Shown piece after piece: positions 22,264 to 33,307 of a stretch of DNA of 37,342 nt. How positions within the stretch are numbered: position 1 is the first letter of the stretch; every line of letters starts with the position of its first letter. This stretch comes from an uncultured Erysipelotrichaceae bacterium (lineage in GTDB: Bacteria; Bacillota_I; Bacilli_A; RF39; UBA660): the NCBI GenBank assembly GCA_902779035.1, contig CACZAH010000018.1, positions 1 to 37,342 of the forward strand, written 5' to 3'. The position numbers and the translations under genes were made by a program. The notes beneath the pieces are model-generated. The model did no database searches. It was not told the DNA's origin and saw only the letters and a program-made list of their open reading frames with translations.

Positions 22264-23205
22264 TTATAGTATTGCTATCTGTTCTTTTGTTAACCCAGTA
22301 ACCTTAGAAATAAACTCTGTATCAGCATTTTCTTCCTTCATCTTTTTTGCCATATCCAAAGTATTTTTCTCAGTTACTTCTTTAGTAACCTTCTTAGTAG
22401 TTTCTTCTACTGCATCAGCTACTGCATACTCAATATTTGCTTCAAATGCTTCTTTTAAGTATTCCTCTCTATCATAAGCTACAATTACATCATCTTCCCA
22501 ACTATACTTCTTCACTCTATCACTTATCCCTTTCAATATTTCATTACGTTTACTAATTTTTTCTAACATTTCTTCTTCATAAATGCCTATTACTCCAACC
22601 GCAATTTCAAAATCAGTTAACTCATTTATGTTTTTATTGTAACATAAATCCCTATAAGTTGAAACATTGATATTGATAATTTTCATCATATTCGTTAATT
22701 TAAACTTTGAATCTTCATCATCATTAAGCGAAAAACTTACATATGGTTTATCGTTAGTGTTTTTATTATTCAAATTAATTTGAATATAATACTTCTTTGC
22801 TTTCCTAATTCTTTCTCTATCACTCTTAGATAGTGATTCATCTGGCTTATAACTAGCAGATGCTAATCTAAATATAAACTCGACATTTCTATCTATCTCA
22901 TATGCATTATAGGCAGTATTTACTTCTACATTAACATAATCAAATTCTCCTATCTTACAAACTAAATCTACACATTTTTTACTATTTAATCTATAATCAC
23001 CTATAAGTTCATCATTAAGTATCTCTATTACCTTAACATCTTTATCAAGAATACTTGAAAGTAAATAATTAAGTCTTTCTAGATGTTCAGTATCTCCATA
23101 TACTTTCTTAAATAAATTATCCGACATAAGTGGAACTACTTCTCCCTTAGGAAGTCTAGTACCTCTTAAACTTCCTTCTCTTTTTTTAGGTTTTATACTA
23201 TTCAT
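22264..23205 (-). CDS. Rpn-family PD-(D/E)XK nuclease / putative transposase
   Basis: The N-terminal MSDNLFKKVYGDTEHLERLN matches the family opening (D-x-x-F-K-x-V-F-x(5)-L). The nuclease core is CVDLVCKIGEFDYVNVEVN, where D and E-x-N replace the common D and E-x-Q. The PDDEXK_2 family (Rpn) promotes RecA-independent recombination and is often amplified in gut Firmicutes. The C-terminal part is a charged coiled coil (VADAVEETTKKVTKEVTEKN) ending in an ELI-like helix, as usual. It is flanked by terminators on both sides, so it is a single-gene unit inserted between lspA and gmk. Confidence 0.85.
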   Translation of the reverse strand: MNSIKPKKREGSLRGTRLPKGEVVPLMSDNLFKKVYGDTEHLERLNYLLSSILDKDVKVIEILNDELIGDYRLNSKKCVDLVCKIGEFDYVNVEVNTAYNAYEIDRNVEFIFRLASASYKPDESLSKSDRERIRKAKKYYIQINLNNKNTNDKPYVSFSLNDDEDSKFKLTNMMKIININVSTYRDLCYNKNINELTDFEIAVGVIGIYEEEMLEKISKRNEILKGISDRVKKYSWEDDVIVAYDREEYLKEAFEANIEYAVADAVEETTKKVTKEVTEKNTLDMAKKMKEENADTEFISKVTGLTKEQIAIL

Positions 23206-23411: not shown

Positions 23412-24077
23412 CTATTTATCATAATCCTTTAAATCTTCAGTAAGTAATTCATGTAGCATTTCTTCTTTAGTATTAAGGTCAAAATCCTCTATTCTGTTCA
23501 CACGACACTTCTCTGCTTTAATAATAGCTTCTACTTTACTTACTGCAGTATCAATATCATCATTAATAACTATATAATTATATTTATTAACCTCATTAAT
23601 TTCTTTATATGCTCTTTTAAATCTTTCTATAATTTGTTCCTTAGTTTCAGTATTTCTTTTAATTAATCTTCTTTTTAGCTCCCTCATACTAGGAGGAATA
23701 ATAAATATAAATACTCCCTCAGGCATAGCCTCATTAACTTGAGCTGCACCTTCAATCTCTATTTCAAGAATAACATCAATACCTTCATTTAATTTTTTCT
23801 CTACTTCAGCCTTAGGAGTACCATAATAATTACCGTTATATACAACAGCATACTCAAGCATACCACCATCATCAATCTTATTTAAAAACTCATCCTTAGT
23901 AACAAAATAGTAATTAACACCATCTACCTCACCCGATCTAGGTTCCCTAGTTGTCATAGATACATTTAAAAATAAATCTGGATTATTCTTTAATAACTTA
24001 CTACATATCGTACCTTTACCACATCCACTAGGCCCCGATATAACAATCAAATTACCTCTTATATTTTCTTTAACCAC
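23412..24077 (-). CDS. gmk: Guanylate kinase
   Basis: This enzyme phosphorylates GMP to GDP with ATP. The P-loop is in LIVISGPSGCGKGTICSKLL. The GMP-binding segment is VSMTTREPRSGEVDGVNYYF, and DVILEIEIEGAAQV and IIPPSMRELKRRLIKR follow. The length is normal. The start is probably the GTG at 24077, which has AGAGGTGG 5 bases upstream; a GTG at 24086 lies inside that ribosome site. A 193-bp MITE sits immediately upstream, so its promoter was either displaced or is supplied by the element. Confidence 0.95.
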   Translation of the reverse strand: MVKENIRGNLIVISGPSGCGKGTICSKLLKNNPDLFLNVSMTTREPRSGEVDGVNYYFVTKDEFLNKIDDGGMLEYAVVYNGNYYGTPKAEVEKKLNEGIDVILEIEIEGAAQVNEAMPEGVFIFIIPPSMRELKRRLIKRNTETKEQIIERFKRAYKEINEVNKYNYIVINDDIDTAVSKVEAIIKAEKCRVNRIEDFDLNTKEEMLHELLTEDLKDYDK

Positions 24078-24102
24078 AGTATCCACCTCTTGCGACTATT
24101 CT

Positions 24103-24295
24103 GTTACAGTTTTGTGACTTAAACACTAATAAAACCAACACTTTGTATGGATTAATATTAATAAAATTACATATTTTTATTGAAAAAATGGGATTTTTTT
24201 GATAAATTATCCAATTATCTTAAAAATATCAATCGAGGCAAATACTAGTATTTATAATGGATTATCACAATTTATAATAGTCACAAAACTGTAAC
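24103..24295. mobile_element. MITE-like element with 17-bp TIRs and 8-bp TSD
   Basis: GTTACAGTTTTGTGACT (24103-24119) and its exact reverse complement AGTCACAAAACTGTAAC (24279-24295) bound a 193-bp non-coding segment. The same 8 bases, ACTATTCT, lie directly outside both ends (24095-24102 and 24296-24303), which is a perfect target site duplication. The interior is AT-rich with no reading frame of note. It is therefore a non-autonomous transposon moved by a transposase encoded elsewhere. The 8-bp duplication agrees with IS1595-, ISL3- or IS256-like enzymes, but the ends do not match the IS1595 element in this window. It lies in the leader of gmk and beside the tRNA-Lys promoter. Confidence 0.9.
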
Positions 24296-24333
24296 ACTAT
24301 TCTACCACACAAAAACTTTTTTTTCAAAAAGTA

Positions 24334-24362
24334 TTGATATTTTACCACATTAGTAGTATAAT
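24334..24362 (+). promoter_or_regulatory. Promoter of tRNA-Lys
   Basis: TTGATA (24334-24339), 17 bases, TATAAT (24357-24362), about 55 bases before the tRNA. It begins 31 bases outside the right target duplication of the MITE, so it survived the insertion. Confidence 0.85.
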
Positions 24363-24417: not shown

Positions 24418-24493
24418 GCACCCTTAGCTCAGTTGGTAGAGCAACTGACTCTTAATCAGTGGGTCTAGGGTTCGAGTCCCCAAGGGTGCACCA
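24418..24493 (+). tRNA. tRNA-Lys(CUU)
   Basis: Acceptor arms GCACCCT and AGGGTGC, with discriminator A and encoded CCA. The anticodon loop CTCTTAA on stem ACTGA/TCAGT gives CUU, reading AAG. The T arm contains GGTTCGAGTCC. The length is 76 bases. Confidence 0.97.
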
Positions 24494-24708: not shown

Positions 24709-24793
24709 GCGGACAACGCCGTTGTTGTTGTTGTTGACGTTGTTGTTCCCAAGCTCGCCATTATTGCTTACGTTCCAAACATTCGAAGACGAA
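24709..24793 (-). repeat. DGR template repeat (TR), 85 bp
   Basis: Read on the minus strand, it starts TTCGTCTTCGAATGTTTGG and ends GGCGTTGTCCGC, exactly as the VR at 27147-27240 does. Between these ends it carries runs of AAC codons: three, then GTC, then five more. The VR has the same backbone, but differs only where the TR has adenine (for example AAC to TTC, AGC to GGC, GAG to GGG, AAC to AGC). This adenine-specific pattern is the hallmark of mutagenic retrohoming. It lies 38 bases after the RT stop. The VR is 9 bases longer because its NNC tract has eight codons in place of five. Confidence 0.97.
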
Positions 24794-24831
24794 CATTCGC
24801 CATATACAGTATTATCCCTAATAAATAATTA

Positions 24832-26061
24832 TCACTCACACATTACTATACTACCATCACCCTCAATTCTAACTATCTTACTATTTAATTCTAATAATTC
24901 TTCATAGCCATCATAGAAATCTCTCTCATATCTATTTAGTGTCTTACTTACAAGATTTCTAGAATCACCATATTTAAGATGCCCTAAATAACTCATCTTT
25001 ACTTGTATTAATTTATCTATCTCAATCTTCCCACTAGTATATAATTTATACATATTCTTCATTTTTCTTTTAAACTTCCTTTTAGTTTGATTCTTAACTT
25101 TAACAATTAACTTATTGTTCTTTTTAACATATTTAAACCCTAAAAACTCAAATCCTTCATCTATATGATATATTCTAGTTTTATTATTTAACTTTAACTT
25201 ATAATCAGCAACTATTCTATTTATTTCTTTAAGACAATATTTTAAATAATCTTTATTATCGTATACTAATAGTCCATCATCATTGTACCTAATATAAAGA
25301 AATGGTTTTAATACTTCTTTAATATAATCATCTAACTTATGAAGATAAACTACCGCGAACGCTTGTGAGCTCATCGAACCAATCGAGCATCCAACACCTT
25401 TCCTACACAAAGGTATATCCATAATCTCTTTAATTAATTTATCTTTATTAGAACTATTACTCTTCTCTAACTTACTAATCTCTCTATTCTTAATCTTAAT
25501 AATCTCTTTATTAATATAATCATGATTAGTAGAATCGATAATAGTATCTAATATATTAATTGCATCCCTATCTTTAATTTTAGATCTGATGATATTCTTC
25601 AGAATATCATGATCTAAATTAAAGAAATATTTCTTTATATCAAATTTTAATATATATAAATCTTTATTTATATTCTTTCTTAAACACTCTTTTACCTTCT
25701 TAATACCAATATGAGTACCTTTACCAATCCTAGTTGCGATATTATTATCAATTAACAATGGTTCAAATACATCAACTAAGAAATACTTACTAACTAAGTG
25801 ATTAACTATCTTATCAGTAATAGACTGTGCCATAATAAGTCTTACCTTAGGTTCTTTAACTAAGAATATATTATACTTATAAGGTTTATATATCTTATTA
25901 TCTAACATATACTTAATCCTAGCCATATTAGATGTATAATGTTCATCAAACCTTTCTATCTTCCCCTTATTCTTAGTATTAACCCTAACCTTCTTATCAT
26001 ACATCTCTTTAATATTCTTAATATCAGTTATCTTACTATATAAATTACCTACTCTCTTCAT
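24832..26061 (-). CDS. DGR reverse transcriptase
   Basis: This 409-aa RT has the seven-block core. Motif A is KFDIKKYFFNLDH with catalytic Asp141. Motif 4 is GCSIGSMSSQAFAVVYLHKL, the I-G-x(3)-S-Q form that separates DGR RTs from group II intron and retron RTs. Motif 5 is IRYNDDGLLVYD, with Asp261 and Asp262. FEFLGFKY and a basic thumb (QTKRKFKRKMKNMYKL) follow. It would copy the TR RNA with adenine-directed errors and deliver the cDNA to the VR of the pilin gene. It overlaps the Avd-like gene by 17 bases, suggesting coupled translation. Confidence 0.97.
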   Translation of the reverse strand: MKRVGNLYSKITDIKNIKEMYDKKVRVNTKNKGKIERFDEHYTSNMARIKYMLDNKIYKPYKYNIFLVKEPKVRLIMAQSITDKIVNHLVSKYFLVDVFEPLLIDNNIATRIGKGTHIGIKKVKECLRKNINKDLYILKFDIKKYFFNLDHDILKNIIRSKIKDRDAINILDTIIDSTNHDYINKEIIKIKNREISKLEKSNSSNKDKLIKEIMDIPLCRKGVGCSIGSMSSQAFAVVYLHKLDDYIKEVLKPFLYIRYNDDGLLVYDNKDYLKYCLKEINRIVADYKLKLNNKTRIYHIDEGFEFLGFKYVKKNNKLIVKVKNQTKRKFKRKMKNMYKLYTSGKIEIDKLIQVKMSYLGHLKYGDSRNLVSKTLNRYERDFYDGYEELLELNSKIVRIEGDGSIVMCE

Positions 26062-26380
26062 AATTCATCCAACTATAAACCATCTTATTAATCTCAAGTA
26101 AATAATCCCCAATACGTTTAAACTTCTTATAACTAATCAATTGATAATCACAACTAACCTTAATATAATACTCAATCATTTTAATATCTACAACAATATC
26201 TTTCTTAACATTTATATCTTTACATATATTTGCTTTATAAGTTAACTTAAGTAAATCATAAAAAGTATTCATAATATTATCCTTTAAGAATTTATATTCA
26301 TGAGAATAGTTAGAAGTAGTCTTTCTAACCAACTCAATAGTCTTCTTTATCTTAATAGATATAATTAACTTATCTTGCAT
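26045..26380 (-). CDS. Avd-like DGR accessory protein
   Basis: This is a basic, all-helical 111-aa protein. The pattern IKKTIELVRKTTSNYSHEYK, then LKDNIMNTFYDLLKLTYKAN, then IEYYIKVSCDYQLISYKKFK, then YLLEINKMVYSWM gives four helices, the fold of accessory variability determinant proteins and of S23 (23S intervening sequence) proteins. Avd forms a pentameric barrel that binds the DGR RT and template RNA. Its place directly before the RT, with overlapping frames on both sides (16 and 17 bases), is typical. Confidence 0.85.
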   Translation of the reverse strand: MQDKLIISIKIKKTIELVRKTTSNYSHEYKFLKDNIMNTFYDLLKLTYKANICKDINVKKDIVVDIKMIEYYIKVSCDYQLISYKKFKRIGDYLLEINKMVYSWMNYEESR

Positions 26381-26778
26381 ATAATACCTTCAATACTACT
26401 TATAATACTATTAATACTAGGATTTAATATATTATTATTTAATATATCATTAATACTATTAATCTTATTTTTAACAATAAAATAATCATTACTACTATAC
26501 TTAGAATAATTATTTCTAATAAACTTAGAATATGTAACATCATTATTATCAACAGTAATATAATTAATCTCATATTTAGTTAGTATTGTTCTTACTCTAT
26601 TCAAACTAGTTAATGGAAAACCTACTCTAATATATTTACTTAACTCCTTAATCTTATAATTAAATAATTTATTAATGATAATTGCATCATCATTTATACA
26701 ATCATAGAAATTACCTGCCTTAATTATTATTAAAGACTTAGGATACTTCTCCTTTAACTTAATATATTTCTCTAACAT
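26365..26778 (-). CDS. MutS-domain-I-like (MSL) DGR accessory protein
   Basis: Residues 1-70 read YIKLKEKYPKSLIIIKAGNF, Y-D-x(4)-D-D-A, and a later IRVGFPLTSLNRVRTILTKY with INYITVD. This follows the first domain of MutS (Y-x-x-x-K-x-x-Y-P-D-x-x-L-x-x-R-V-G-D-F-Y-E, then G-x-P), but nothing else of MutS is present. MutS-like small genes have been noted as DGR accessories. The 137-aa length means it has no ATPase. It may recognise mispaired TR/VR hybrids or cDNA, which is inference. GGAGG precedes the ATG, and it is the first gene of the MSL-Avd-RT operon. Confidence 0.7.
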   Translation of the reverse strand: MLEKYIKLKEKYPKSLIIIKAGNFYDCINDDAIIINKLFNYKIKELSKYIRVGFPLTSLNRVRTILTKYEINYITVDNNDVTYSKFIRNNYSKYSSNDYFIVKNKINSINDILNNNILNPSINSIISSIEGIICKIS

Positions 26779-26846
26779 AACATAATTCCTCCATCATAAA
26801 TCATATAATAATTACAACATACATCATACAACCTACAACAAACTAC

Positions 26847-26876
26847 ATTATATCTATTACTAACACCTTCTTTCAA
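26847..26876 (-). promoter_or_regulatory. Promoter of the MSL-Avd-RT operon
   Basis: On the minus strand, TTGAAA (26871-26876), 18 bases, TATAAT (26847-26852), about 70 bases before the MSL start. It lets the DGR machinery be transcribed independently of the pilin target. Confidence 0.7.
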
Positions 26877-26928
26877 TGAAAAATAAAGAAACAGCATGAT
26901 GATTTTATCACACTATTTCACTACTCTA

Positions 26929-27040
26929 ATCGCATTTAATCGCATGCTCACTCACGCATCTTCGATGCCATCGTTCGCTTTATACGGCAAATTACGCTCC
27001 GCTATTTGCCTATTCCAATGATTTGTTCCACAAATCATTG
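26929..27040. other. Three-hairpin structured intergenic segment after the DGR target gene
   Basis: The 320-base gap between target and MSL gene holds an unusually GC-rich structured stretch. Hairpins are CAATGATTTG/CAAATCATTG (27016-27040, 10-bp perfect stem, 5-base loop), GGCAAAT/ATTTGCC (26986-27010) and GCATC-TTC-GATGC (26956-26968), plus a direct repeat AATCGCAT twice near 26930-26945. No reading frame of note or T-tract is present. Candidates are the DNA hairpin that stimulates DGR homing downstream of the VR, or a small structured RNA. Confidence 0.55.
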
Positions 27041-27098
27041 CATTATCTATTCACTCTATACCTCTTTCAAAACCAACAAGAGCATTTAGACCAACAAT

Positions 27099-28103
27099 CT
27101 AATTTCCTGTGCTAGAGATATTAGATTTAAAGATTGTTATAACCGGGCGGACAACGCCGTAGTTGCTGCTGCTGTTGCCGTCGACGCTGCTGCTCCCAAG
27201 CCCGCCATTATTGCCCACGAACCAAACATTCGAAGACGAATCTGTATAAGGAGTTCCTAACCAATACCAATAATTATTGTTATACATCCAATCATATTTT
27301 AGACCAATTGCCTCGTAGCAACTACCAGTACATATTTGTTTCGCTTCTGCATATTCAGATGTCTCTTCATATGTTAATAATCTAGCTTCGTCTGCTGCTG
27401 GTGCTTTCGCTGCCTTCCATGCATCTACTACGTATTTAATCTCACTTGAAGCATAATCAGTCTTACATCCTGTATATACCCAAGTATTATTTACATATCC
27501 ACAAGTTTCACTTGTATAATATGCCATACCTCCATAACCATTACTATTATATGCAGTTCCTACTGAATCAGCTGTATATCTGTTTACATGTCCTGCGCCA
27601 TACTCGTTTACTTCTGCAACCTTTAATGGTTCTGCTTTTAATAGAGTTGCTTTAGTATCTGTAGATTTTACATCTTTTAGTACTCTATAGTTTACTCCAT
27701 TATATGTAACTAAATCACCTACTCTATAATCATATGTTACTTCTTCTTTTGTTCCATAAGTATAGTTTCCTGTACTTCTTCCTGCTACTGTACATCCAGC
27801 TAAATATACTGATGAATCAGTATTGATTTGTGTTGTTTCACACACTACTTGACTACCAGAATATTCAATTGTTAATTGTGATACTTCTGTTGGAAATTTA
27901 CCTGTATCTAGTAGATAACCTGCAATTGCTAATTCTATGCTTCTACCATATGCATCTACACTTCTTTTATCTGCAGAAATACGTGCCTTTCTAATAATTG
28001 ACATTACTAACGGAGTAACAATTAATGCGATTATTGCCATAATTACGAGTACAGCAATCAACTCGATTAGAGTAAATCCTCTAACTTTTCTATTATTTCT
28101 CAT
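27099..28103 (-). CDS. DGR target: type IV pilin-like protein with C-terminal lectin-like variable domain
   Basis: The N-terminus MRNNRKVRGFTLIELIAVLV is a class III signal: cleavage after Gly9, mature Phe1 and Glu5, then a long hydrophobic helix, so it should be processed by a prepilin peptidase and assembled into a pilus or pseudopilus. The C-terminal part (YDWMYNNNYWYWLGTPYTDS, then GVVRPVITIF) resembles the DUF6273/formylglycine-enzyme type of C-type lectin fold used by DGR targets. The VR covers residues 288-319, with GSSSVDGNSSSN as the hypervariable loop. Four Cys pairs or loops may stabilise the head. AGAGAGG supports the start. It likely displays a variable binding surface. Confidence 0.92.
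   Translation of the reverse strand: MRNNRKVRGFTLIELIAVLVIMAIIALIVTPLVMSIIRKARISADKRSVDAYGRSIELAIAGYLLDTGKFPTEVSQLTIEYSGSQVVCETTQINTDSSVYLAGCTVAGRSTGNYTYGTKEEVTYDYRVGDLVTYNGVNYRVLKDVKSTDTKATLLKAEPLKVAEVNEYGAGHVNRYTADSVGTAYNSNGYGGMAYYTSETCGYVNNTWVYTGCKTDYASSEIKYVVDAWKAAKAPAADEARLLTYEETSEYAEAKQICTGSCYEAIGLKYDWMYNNNYWYWLGTPYTDSSSNVWFVGNNGGLGSSSVDGNSSSNYGVVRPVITIFKSNISSTGN
27147..27240 (-). repeat. DGR variable repeat (VR), 94 bp
   Basis: It shares both ends with the TR (5' TTCGTCTTCGAATGTTTGG, 3' GGCGTTGTCCGC on the minus strand). Outside the AAC tract I count eight substitutions, all at template adenines: AAC to TTC, GTA to GTG, AGC to GGC, GAG to GGG, and three AAC to AGC. The tract after GTC has eight NNC codons (GAC, GGC, AAC, three AGC, AAC, TAC), each one derivable from AAC. 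The GC-rich 3' end would be the initiation-of-mutagenic-homing site. Confidence 0.96.
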
Positions 28104-28269: not shown

Positions 28270-28380
28270 TTAAACCTTATCAACAATTACTATATCATAA
28301 GGTACTGATGTTGCTTCTAGGTTTTCAAAGCATTCTTTCATTATCATGTTTTTAGTATCTTCTATTGCAACTTTACTCAT
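28270..28380 (-). pseudogene. Small coupled ORF, possibly a nucleotidyltransferase fragment (36 aa)
   Basis: The ATG overlaps the stop of the ORF6N 3' fragment (ATGA), so it would be translationally coupled. The sequence MSKVAIEDTKNMIMKECFEN ends SVPYDIVIVDKV, which weakly resembles the F-x-x-L-x(5)-P-Y-x-x-D-(V/I)-V-D strand of minimal nucleotidyltransferases. The domain's N-terminal G-S-x(10)-D-x-D part is absent. I treat it as a fragment; the family is uncertain. Confidence 0.3.
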
Positions 28381-28555
28381 TTATATTACGCTCTATTATT
28401 TTATTAATATCATTAATTAATACTCTCTTAATACTAAGATCGTGTAATAAGTCTATTCCTGATTTTCTATATCCAATATGATTAACGGAATTGCCTGAGT
28501 GGTAAAACTTATCTCTATCTATTATGAAATACCTTATCACAGGACAATTTTTCAT
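28373..28555 (-). pseudogene. 3' fragment of an ORF6N gene (C-terminal phospholipase-D-like domain)
   Basis: YFIIDRDKFYHSGNSVNHIG and all that follows to ERNINE is nearly identical to the end of the intact ORF6N gene at 32381-33307. At DNA level 28377-28531 matches 32385-32539 with about four mismatches in 155 bases. The N-terminal ORF6N domain is missing and the upstream sequence belongs to the TOTE primase remnant, so the junction near 28535 is a recombination scar. Confidence 0.85.
28377..28531. repeat. 155-bp direct repeat, copy 1 (second copy at 32385-32539)
   Basis: About 97% identical to 32385-32539 in the same orientation, 4008 bases apart. Recombination between the copies would delete the TOTE remnant, the IS1595 element, AbiE and the broken ORF6N copy in one step. 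Confidence 0.85.
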
Positions 28556-29083: not shown

Positions 29084-29301
29084 CTATACCTCAATTAATT
29101 CTAGTGATAACAAATAATCCAAAATATTTTTAATAACGTCATTAGCGGGTATTTCAAGCCAGTTATTTCTTGCAGTTGCTAAATTTCGTTTAAAAATACT
29201 ATTATTTAATATTACTTCTAAATTAGTCTTTATATCAATAATACTTTTTTCTCTCATTGTTTCATCATCAATAATCAACAATTTTAAAATTTTTAATAAA
29301 A
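29084..29301 (-). pseudogene. 3' part of the AbiEii toxin gene, separated by the IS1595 element
   Basis: Reading begins in the target duplication (TTTTATTA on the minus strand) and continues in one frame: LLKILKLLIIDDETMREKSI, then LEVILNNSIFKRNLATARNN and WLEIPANDVIKNILDYLLSL. Joined to the part at 30543-31154 with one duplication removed, the frame is continuous and yields about 275 residues, the normal AbiEii length. The F-x-x-R-x-x-x-A-x-x-N-W segment is typical of the family C-terminus. Confidence 0.85.
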
Positions 29302-29355
29302 AGCTGTGTTCAACTTTATGACTGATGGAGCAAAAAGTGTGATATAATAGATATA

Positions 29356-29462
29356 GCCAAACAAAATATGTAGGAAGGAAGATATCCTTAATCAGTTAGT
29401 CTCTCTACTTATTTTGTTTGGCGATAAAGTAATATTGATTGGGACTAACTGATTAAGGATAT
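29356..29462 (+). promoter_or_regulatory. Interlocked inverted repeats in the IS leader (possible RNA switch)
   Basis: Arm A 29356-29373 pairs with A' 29405-29422 (17 of 18 bases; core GCCAAACAAAATA). Arm B 29382-29401 pairs with B' 29443-29462 (20 of 20; ATATCCTTAATCAGTTAGTC). The order is A-B-A'-B', so the two helices can only form together as a pseudoknot, or else exclude each other. B' is followed by TTTTGG right before the transposase start at 29473. A TATAAT lies upstream at 29343-29348. Confidence 0.75.
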
Positions 29463-29472
29463 TTTTGGTAGT

Positions 29473-30528
29473 ATGAAAATAGAAGAATTAATCAAAGATT
29501 TAGATCCAGTTACAATTATTGAGTTTAAAAACTATGTTATTGAAAATTTAGGTGAGCTCTGTAAAATTAAAAATTCAAATTCTAAAATTATTTCTAATCA
29601 TAGATGTGATGAAGTAATTTGCAAACATTGCAAAGTTAAAATGAATAAAAATGGTAAAACAAAAAATGAAGTGCAAAAATATATTTGTAAGCATTGTGGT
29701 TATACTTGCTCTGAAACTACAGACACAATAGTTGCTCATAGTCATTTATCATTTGATGTATGGAGTAATGTCATTGATAATTTGTTAGATGGATTTAGTA
29801 TAAGAAGAATTGCAGAAGAAAATAATATTTCCATTTGTACATCCTTTAGATTAAGGCATAAAATTTTATTAGCTCTTAAAAAATATGTTCAAAGTATTAA
29901 ATTACAAGGGAATACTCAGTCTGATGAAAAGTATTTTAGTATAAATCTTAAAGGAACTAAACCTAATAATATGCCTAGATTTTCTAAGAAAAGAAAATCT
30001 ACTAGTTCACCATATCGTGGAATTAGTCATCATAAAGTTTGTACAGTTTCATCGATAGATGAGAATGATAATTTGGTTTTAAAAATTGTTGGATTAGGAA
30101 GATGCACTACAGAAATGTTAGAAAATGCACTTAGTGATAAAGTAACCAATGTAAATAATTTCAATACTGATAGTGCGAGCGCATATAGAAAATTTTGTAA
30201 AAATCATAGTATTAAATTGAATGCAATTCCATCAGGCAAACATAGTAATGGTGAGATAAATATATCTAAAATAAATGGAATACATTCTCAACTAGAAACC
30301 TGGCTATCAAGATTTAGAGGTGTATCTATTAGACATCTACAAGAATACTTAGATTGGTTTGTTTTTATTTTTACTATGAAAAGAAAATTCAGTTTAACTA
30401 GAGTTAAAACTGAATCATATAATACAGTTATAGTAGATAATAATTATATAAAATCTAAGGATATATTTAAAATACCATTACCAATTGATCTTAAAGTAGC
30501 ATATTCTGAGTATTCGCGTCAGTCATAA
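29473..30528 (+). CDS. IS1595-family transposase
   Basis: The N-terminal zinc ribbon (VICKHCKVKMNKNGKTKNEV, then YICKHCGYTC) is followed by an HTH (VIDNLLDGFSIRRIAEENNI) and the ISXO2-like DDE domain. Acidic residues are in TQSDEKYFSI and FNTDSASAYRKFC, and the C-terminal INGIHSQLETWLSRFRGVSI, with Y-L-D-W-F, fits the family. At 351 aa it is full length without frameshift, so the element may still be mobile. Translation starts 10 bases after the B' arm of the leader hairpin, so that structure could cover its ribosome site. Confidence 0.95.
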   Translation: MKIEELIKDLDPVTIIEFKNYVIENLGELCKIKNSNSKIISNHRCDEVICKHCKVKMNKNGKTKNEVQKYICKHCGYTCSETTDTIVAHSHLSFDVWSNVIDNLLDGFSIRRIAEENNISICTSFRLRHKILLALKKYVQSIKLQGNTQSDEKYFSINLKGTKPNNMPRFSKKRKSTSSPYRGISHHKVCTVSSIDENDNLVLKIVGLGRCTTEMLENALSDKVTNVNNFNTDSASAYRKFCKNHSIKLNAIPSGKHSNGEINISKINGIHSQLETWLSRFRGVSIRHLQEYLDWFVFIFTMKRKFSLTRVKTESYNTVIVDNNYIKSKDIFKIPLPIDLKVAYSEYSRQS

Positions 30529-30542
30529 AGTTGAACACAGCT

Positions 30543-31154
30543 TAATAAAAAACCTTTATTTATATCAGTATTGTTAATTAAATAATATATATCAAATATA
30601 TCCTTATACCTAGTTGTTCTTATACCAAACCTTAATAATGATTTTAGTTTTTCACATATAATTTGCTCCTTTGAATTCATAATCAAAGTAGTTCTTTCAT
30701 TAATTGTATCTAGATTAAAACAAAATTCATCTTGCTTAATATCCAGATTTTTATGCACTCCTACATCAAGTTTTGCTGATACTGAAAAATTATTTTCATC
30801 TTTTAGTGTAACATTAATTCTTTTACCTTTATAATCTTGATGATGTAATTCTTTTATTTCTCCATCAATTAAAATTTTAATACCATCATCTACTAAATTT
30901 AGCTTATCAATAAAATTTTTAATAGCATTATCTTCAAGCGAGTATTTTATAAAATCTAAATCCAAATCTCTAGTTGCACGTCTTCTATCGTTTGATAAAG
31001 CATACATCACAACTCCACCTTTAATTGTCACATTTTTTCTCATATCACTTTTAAAAATTTTATTTAGAATTATATCTTGACATATCTTTGCTGATGCATT
31101 AGCTAAATTGTACCCACCATCAATATATTTTTTTCTTAACTTTTCTAAATTCAC
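30543..31154 (-). pseudogene. 5' part of the AbiEii-type toxin gene (nucleotidyltransferase), cut by the IS
   Basis: This is the toxin half of a type IV AbiE system. VTIKGGVVMYALSNDRRRAT and RDLDLDF give the nucleotidyltransferase loop G-G-x(10)-R-x-T-x-D-x-D. KEQIICEKLKSLLRFGIRTT, then RYKDIFDIYYLI, is the usual motif around the general base region. It starts with GTG after GAGGTG, directly overlapping the antitoxin stop. Coding sequence is authentic to GFLL at the target duplication; the following residues up to 30519 come from the IS end. A truncated toxin may be inactive. Confidence 0.9.
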
Positions 31155-31791: not shown

Positions 31792-32388
31792 TTAACATTC
31801 ATTCGTAGTTTTCCTAAATATATCTAAAACTTTAGAATATGCATCATATTCTTTACCATTAAAATAAATTTCATCTATTTCTTTATCAGTCTCTAGCTTA
31901 TCAAAAGATTCTTGTAATAGTTTAATATTATTACTATTTTCTGATATTTCATTATCATGTTTTAATAACATATCTTTTATATACTTATTTTCTCCTATAG
32001 TATTAAATAGATAATGTCTCATTTTAACAAATGCACGCATTATACTTACACTCATCTCAGAAGCTACTTTAGTTCTAAGTACAGTTGCAAGCATAGCCAC
32101 TCCTTGTTCTGTAAATGCATAAGGCAAGTATTTCTTATGTTCTCCACGGGCACTCTTTAAGGTTCCAGTTTGGAACCTTAAAGAACTATACTCCTCTTTC
32201 GTTAGTTAAAAATAAAAATCACTTGGAAATCTTTCAGCATTTCTCTTTACTGCTTTATTAATATCTTTTGTTCCATTAGTACACTCATAAAGAACAGCTA
32301 AATCAGAATCTAGCATTACATACTTACCTCTAATCTCATATATCATATCTTCTATTTTTGCATCATTCTTTATTACAACTTCATTCAT
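31792..32388 (-). pseudogene. ORF6N-domain gene, second copy, broken by one in-frame stop
   Basis: MNEVVIKNDAKIEDMIYEIR to AERFPSDFYF is the ORF6N DNA-binding domain. A TAA at 32206-32208 interrupts the frame, which then continues LTKEEYSSLRFQTGTLKSAR into YLPYAFTEQGVAMLATVLRT and so on. In relatives the stop position is Gln (CAA), so one C-to-T change explains it. The C-terminus ends early (IFRKTTNEC) compared with the intact copy and lacks the phospholipase-D-like domain. Its start overlaps the stop of the intact copy. Confidence 0.85.
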
Positions 32389-33307
32389 TTATATTACGCT
32401 CTATTATTTTATTAATATCATTAATTAATACTCTCTTAATACTAAGATCGTGTAATAAGTCTATTCCTGATTTTCTATATCCTATATGATTAATGGAATT
32501 GCCTGAATGGTAAAACTTATCTCTATCTATTATAAAATATCTATCATGGAATGTATCATCATAATAAATAGTTAGATTATTATAATCCCCGTTATACTTC
32601 TCTATATCTAATTTAGTTAGTTTACTCTTCTTACTAGTAATTAAAAATACTTTACACTCTAAATTTCTAATCATATCTAGAAATGTCTTATCAGTATATC
32701 TATCTACTACAATTAATTCTTCTTTAGTATCAGCAAATATATCTAAAACTTTAGAATATGCATCATATTCTTTACCATTAAAATATATTTCATCTATTTC
32801 TTTATCTTGCTCTAACTTATCAAATGATTCTTGTAATAGTTTAATATTATTACTATTTTCTGAAATTTCATTATCATGTTTTAACAACATATCTTTTATA
32901 TACTTGTTTTCTCCTACTGTATTTAATAAGTAATGTCTCATTTTAACAAATGCATCCATTATTCTTATACTCATTTCTTCAGCCACATCTGTTCTTAAAA
33001 CAGCAGATAGCATAGCTGCTCCTTGTTCTGTAAATGCATATGGTAAATACTTGATATTATATCCTCTTCCCTTCAAGGTTTCAATTTGAAACCTTGAAAT
33101 TGACTCACACTCTTCTTCAGTCAACCTAAACATAAATCTTTCTGGAAATCTATTAATATGTCTTTTTACTGCTAGATTAATTGATTTTGTACCATTTTTA
33201 CATCCATAAAGAACAGCTAAATCAGAATCTAGCATTACATACTTACCTCTAATCTCATATATCATATCTTCTATTTTTGCAGCATTCTTTATTAAATTAT
33301 CTTGCAT
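32381..33307 (-). CDS. ORF6N-domain protein with C-terminal phospholipase-D-like domain
   Basis: The ORF6N domain covers about residues 10-110 (KIEDMIYEIRGKYVMLDSDL, A-V-L-Y-G, then YLPYAFTEQGAAMLSAVLRT). ORF6N is a DNA-binding domain of phage antirepressors and of mobile-element regulators. A coiled-coil linker follows. The C-terminal 110 residues (ELIVVDRYTDKTFLDMIRN, then HDRYFIIDRDKFYHSGNSIN) have a single degenerate HKD-like motif, the PLD nuclease-like extension common in this family. AGGAGG supports ATG 33307; the longer frame to 33370 is unlikely. It is the intact member of three related copies. Confidence 0.85.
   Translation of the reverse strand: MQDNLIKNAAKIEDMIYEIRGKYVMLDSDLAVLYGCKNGTKSINLAVKRHINRFPERFMFRLTEEECESISRFQIETLKGRGYNIKYLPYAFTEQGAAMLSAVLRTDVAEEMSIRIMDAFVKMRHYLLNTVGENKYIKDMLLKHDNEISENSNNIKLLQESFDKLEQDKEIDEIYFNGKEYDAYSKVLDIFADTKEELIVVDRYTDKTFLDMIRNLECKVFLITSKKSKLTKLDIEKYNGDYNNLTIYYDDTFHDRYFIIDRDKFYHSGNSINHIGYRKSGIDLLHDLSIKRVLINDINKIIERNINE
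32385..32539. repeat. 155-bp direct repeat, copy 2 (first copy at 28377-28531)
   Basis: The 3' end of the intact ORF6N gene, about 97% identical in the same orientation to the fragment near the DGR promoter. It brackets the island segment holding TOTE, IS1595 and AbiE. Confidence 0.85.

Follow-up and report, generated by a model that had tools for sequence, protein, structure and literature searches.

The ISBst12 group of the IS66 family (e.g., ISDge4; PMC12898284) resembles the partner insertion sequence (IS) described below in its single ORF, DDE_Tnp_IS66 domain and 8-bp target duplications. ISDge4 ends in GTAACTGCTCAGCA, close to the GTAACTATTCAG that terminates related elements in the same taxon as our genome; however, the ends at the present locus read GTTACAGTTTTGTGACT and the associated transposase scores under the NCBIfam IS66 equivalog cut-off. 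MITEAba12 (PMC6382973) is, like the element studied here, short and without a transposase gene, shares its ends and duplication length with a resident IS and is present in several species; it differs in its partner (ISAba12), in its 9-bp duplications and in being mostly 113 bp long. For MITEAba12, RNA-seq showed transcripts from an outward promoter (PMC6382973). The Correia/NEMIS elements of Neisseria (PMC2229807) are likewise MITEs, proposed to affect neighbouring transcripts via RNA stem-loops, whereas a processing or regulatory role of the MITE described here is only putative. This MITE would define a new family tied to an IS66-family partner; no IS66-linked MITE was found in the literature searched, the coverage of which is incomplete.

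A lineage-specific MITE insertion in the gmk leader

We analysed a window of 37,342 nucleotides (the whole stretch of DNA; 26% G+C) from a genome, hereinafter G000, available as a 1.19-Mb draft. Relatives used for comparison include G002, the nearest relative searched (its gmk DNA is 95% identical to that of G000), the congener G003, the congeneric MAG G004, labelled uncultured Bacillales bacterium, and the more distant G115. The 193-bp element in the gmk leader is a genuine, lineage-specific MITE insertion with IS66-family ends, and as such a real but ordinary type of event. The features of the locus are:

24103–24295, no strand assigned: MITE, 193 bp, 22% G+C, no gene; delimited by exact ends and duplication and by the G004 copies
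24103–24119, plus strand: terminal inverted repeat GTTACAGTTTTGTGACT, exact 17 bp; the same 17 bp end IS66-family elements in G000, G004 and G115
24279–24295, minus strand: terminal inverted repeat GTTACAGTTTTGTGACT, exact 17 bp
24095–24102, no strand assigned: target site duplication ACTATTCT, gmk-proximal copy, exact; occurs once in the G002 empty site
24296–24303, no strand assigned: target site duplication ACTATTCT, promoter-proximal copy, exact; AGAATAGT in gmk sense, including AGAAT of the −10 box TAGAAT
23412–24077, minus strand: gmk, encoding guanylate kinase and lying downstream of the MITE; Guanylate_kin, E=3.3e-51
24299–24327, minus strand: predicted native gmk promoter TTGAAA-N17-TAGAAT, from a consensus scan; conserved in congeners
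24334–24362, plus strand: predicted divergent tRNA promoter TTGATA-N17-TATAAT, from the scan; untouched by the insertion, its block conserved in congeners
24418–24490, plus strand: divergent tRNA gene found with the Rfam tRNA model; anticodon CTT (Lys, read by eye)

The perfect 17-bp inverted ends and perfect 8-bp duplication claimed in the preliminary description of this locus were both recovered exactly at these positions, and no listed ORF lies inside the 193 bp, in keeping with its description as a MITE devoid of genes. Shuffled windows yielded a mean of 0.18 matches to the 17-bp end, even with three mismatches allowed. The ends also differ, as had been stated, from those of the nearby IS1595 copy (about 29287–30557), and a link between the two was rejected on that ground.

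The further claim of a transposed, non-autonomous element is upheld by the recurrence of the unit at other sites in G004 and by an empty site in G002. In G000 itself the MITE is present once, without further copies: short matches on contigs C21 and C2 fall in the AT-rich interior, and two additional three-mismatch matches to its end (C3 and C16) were rejected as no better than a reversed-pattern control. Among the 98 genomes searched, the only other carrier is G004, with three whole copies (on C1, C86 and C13; 97.4–99.0% identity) and two interrupted ones (on C35 and C61), all at sites other than gmk. The four whole copies known from the two genomes differ from each other at only a handful of positions. 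The C1 copy is flanked by the duplication AAATTTTA and the C13 copy, which lacks one terminal base, by GGTATGAC; the C86 copy is without a duplication. The interrupted parts on C35 (L046:1–90) and C61 (L047:1–85) adjoin a common foreign end, GACTTGTTCGGGAACTA or similar, and because both share it, they seem to be parts of a single copy into which another element inserted. When GTDB genome contigs were scanned for the element size with both ends exact, only CAMJTE010000086.1 and CAMJTE010000001.1 of G004 (i.e., C86 and C1) were returned. A search of 386 family genomes for the end with at most one mismatch otherwise gave only G115 and G283, both from one other genus, and one isolated occurrence in G344. 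Plasmid and phage records contained no match to the MITE; an isolated single end in two viral contigs, in the same context in both, was taken as chance.

The empty site, for which the preliminary description had suggested a check in relatives, reads GTGTGGTAGAATAGTCGCAAGAGGTGG in G002: it is uninterrupted and contains the target ACTATTCT just once (AGAATAGT when read along gmk), and the 131-bp intergenic region of G000, once the insert is subtracted, is 97.7% identical to it. The gmk leaders of G003 and G004 are also without the insert; since all three congeners lack it, the comparison indicates that the insertion at gmk is specific to this lineage. Between G000 and G004 the MITE is 97.4–99.0% identical, against 85.6% for gmk, and because the former exceeds the latter, the element probably either moved between species recently or was recently renewed within the genus.

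These comparisons also bear on two readings in which the 193 bp would not be an insertion at all. An assembly artefact, in the form of a chimeric join in the MAG, could be entertained for a draft in 51 contigs; however, the flanks of the MITE, when rejoined, agree with the G002 empty site right through the junction, and an exact 8-bp duplication is a trace of transposition rather than of misassembly, so that we give this reading virtually no credence. Hardly any probability attaches, either, to the proposal that the 193 bp are a conserved, non-mobile regulatory RNA leader of gmk. The whole element, read in gmk sense, is predicted to fold strongly (z about −6), which would suit the proposal, but G002, G003 and G004 have gmk leaders without the unit, which in G004 is found at unrelated sites; no Rfam family lies on it (the sole credible match in the Rfam search was the tRNA) and the inverted ends account for much of the fold, the interior alone scoring z = −1.8 on the gmk strand and 0.2 on the opposite one. 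The notion of an ancestral gmk leader is refuted by the G002 empty site together with the copies elsewhere.

A probable IS66-family partner element

The search for an autonomous parent, which the preliminary description had recommended, led to a 1,700-bp element in G000 itself (C15:24845–26544), the ends of which match those of the MITE and which is bounded on both sides by the perfect 8-bp duplication AATACTAT. Its sole substantial gene codes for a 510-aa protein without stops that matches DDE_Tnp_IS66 (PF03050; E=2.4e-19, 70 bits versus a cut-off of 23.1), and its D, D and E are conserved without exception across 11 aligned transposases. With NF033517, the NCBIfam IS66 equivalog model, it scores 122 bits, under the 180-bit cut-off, which is an annotation threshold and not a structural feature; by its sequence, the protein appears to represent a divergent branch of IS66.

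The MITE end agrees with the left end of the IS at 17/17 positions and with its right end at 15/17, and for either kind of IS end in G004 the agreement is 17/17; the duplication length is 8 bp for the MITE and for the IS alike. In G004, IS ends stand at four contig ends, and pairing of their flanks gives the duplications CGACTTTT and GATAGAAT; the IS body was not found in that assembly, as often happens when repeats collapse. The same perfect 17-bp ends enclose, in G115, a transposase 62% identical to the G000 IS66 transposase. Five more IS66-type relatives have perfect 8-bp repeats, and ends like GTAACTATTCAG occur among the related elements. The first bases of the partner IS ends are GTTA, and those of the relatives GTAA or GTTA; the IS66 family criterion is GTAA. 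With its matching ends, its 8-bp duplication and its transposase gene, the 1,700-bp IS is the likely autonomous partner of the MITE. G000 additionally holds a second, divergent IS66-type element (L121; C2:82730–84208), with ends GTTAGTATTTACAG and duplication AATTTGTA.

Beyond the ends, the MITE interior does not resemble the IS significantly (shuffle fractions 0.29–0.79), and descent of that interior from the IS by simple internal deletion is thus unsupported. As the two are not detectably alike apart from their ends, the MITE looks like a type II element in the sense of PMC6382973, which needs no interior derived from its parent.

The predicted native promoter and a probably lengthened gmk leader

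The gmk gene is essential in model bacteria. Its likely start here is the GTG at 24077–24075, which aligns with an ATG in the congeners. Read in gmk sense, the order is TTGAAA-N17-TAGAAT-AGT, the MITE, AGAATAGTCGCAAGAGGTGG and then the start codon. The −35/−10 pair is TTGAAA/TAGAAT in G002, TTGCTA/TATAAT in G003 and TTGAAA/TATAAT in G004. No terminator-like sites were found in the gmk-leader region.

We consider it very probable that an IS66-mobilised MITE inserted behind the gmk promoter and that gmk is still transcribed from this promoter, with a longer, hairpin-containing leader. A single-ORF, ISBst12-like transposase of the IS66 family would have moved the MITE in trans, recognising the 17-bp ends GTTACAGTTTTGTGACT and creating the 8-bp target duplication, and in this lineage the MITE landed 3 bp past the −10 box. 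The target held the AGAAT of TAGAAT; because the duplicated 8 bp overlapped the box, the upstream −10 box is complete, which leaves the promoter-like pair whole upstream of the MITE. By the usual spacing, transcription would now start at the first bases of the MITE, just within it. The case shows how an element, by virtue of its 8-bp duplication, can insert where transcription of a presumably essential gene is presumed to begin and still leave the promoter whole.

The preliminary description had suggested that the MITE may supply the gmk promoter, a suggestion that the sequence does not support, given the complete promoter-like pair TTGAAA-N17-TAGAAT (24327–24299, minus strand) directly upstream, conserved in three congeners. 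Some other bacterial MITEs, MITEAba12 among them (PMC6382973), are known to carry outward promoters, and a weak promoter-like pair inside the present one, TTGCCT-N16-GATAAT (24241–24214, minus strand; 9/12 matches), does face gmk. However, six promoter-like sites were found versus 3.2 ± 2.0 in shuffles, and the weak internal match is therefore uninformative; moreover, a better internal pair, TTTATA-N16-TATAAT (24251–24278), is directed away from gmk. A new promoter provided by the MITE is accordingly unlikely.

With the native promoter still driving gmk, the likeliest arrangement, about 200 nt would be added to the 5′ leader. The whole MITE in gmk sense has a predicted fold with z about −6 to −7, and the lengthened leader is predicted to be able to form a long hairpin, probably also in the cell, with the ribosome site outside it. 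The effect on gmk expression would be mild or none.

By analogy with what has been proposed for NEMIS and ERIC, the hairpin might instead have been co-opted as a leader that is processed by RNase III or stabilises the transcript. In gmk sense its base is predicted to consist of about 30 pairs with hardly a break, and the RNA of other MITE families has been proposed to act on the neighbouring mRNA (PMC2229807). Yet any element with inverted ends folds likewise at its base, and for an insertion that is lineage-specific and single in G000 selection cannot be shown; we regard such co-option as doubtful. A little less probable still is the fuller version, in which the MITE family, with its IS66-type ends and so far without a name, would have given the gmk transcript an initial hairpin RNA that now works as a control or stability element of an essential gene.

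Other features of the window

Downstream of gmk, positions 22264–23205 hold a gene for a PD-(D/E)XK nuclease family transposase (PDDEXK_2). A diversity-generating retroelement occupies 24709–27240, with these parts:

about 24709–24793: template repeat
24832–26061: reverse transcriptase
26045–26380: bAvd-like protein, just under the Pfam cut-off
about 27156–27240: variable repeat, within the 3′ portion of a pilin-like gene (27099–28103)

The template and variable repeats differ at 20 positions, 13 of which fall at template adenines. The IS1595-family element (29287–30557) has 39-bp ends that are 85% complementary and a transposase that exceeds the NCBIfam cut-off. Between 31797 and 33311 a gene segment is duplicated in tandem, the copies being 86% identical and 919 bp apart, and a 189-bp part of this duplication (32354–32542) recurs at 28346–28534 with 92% identity.
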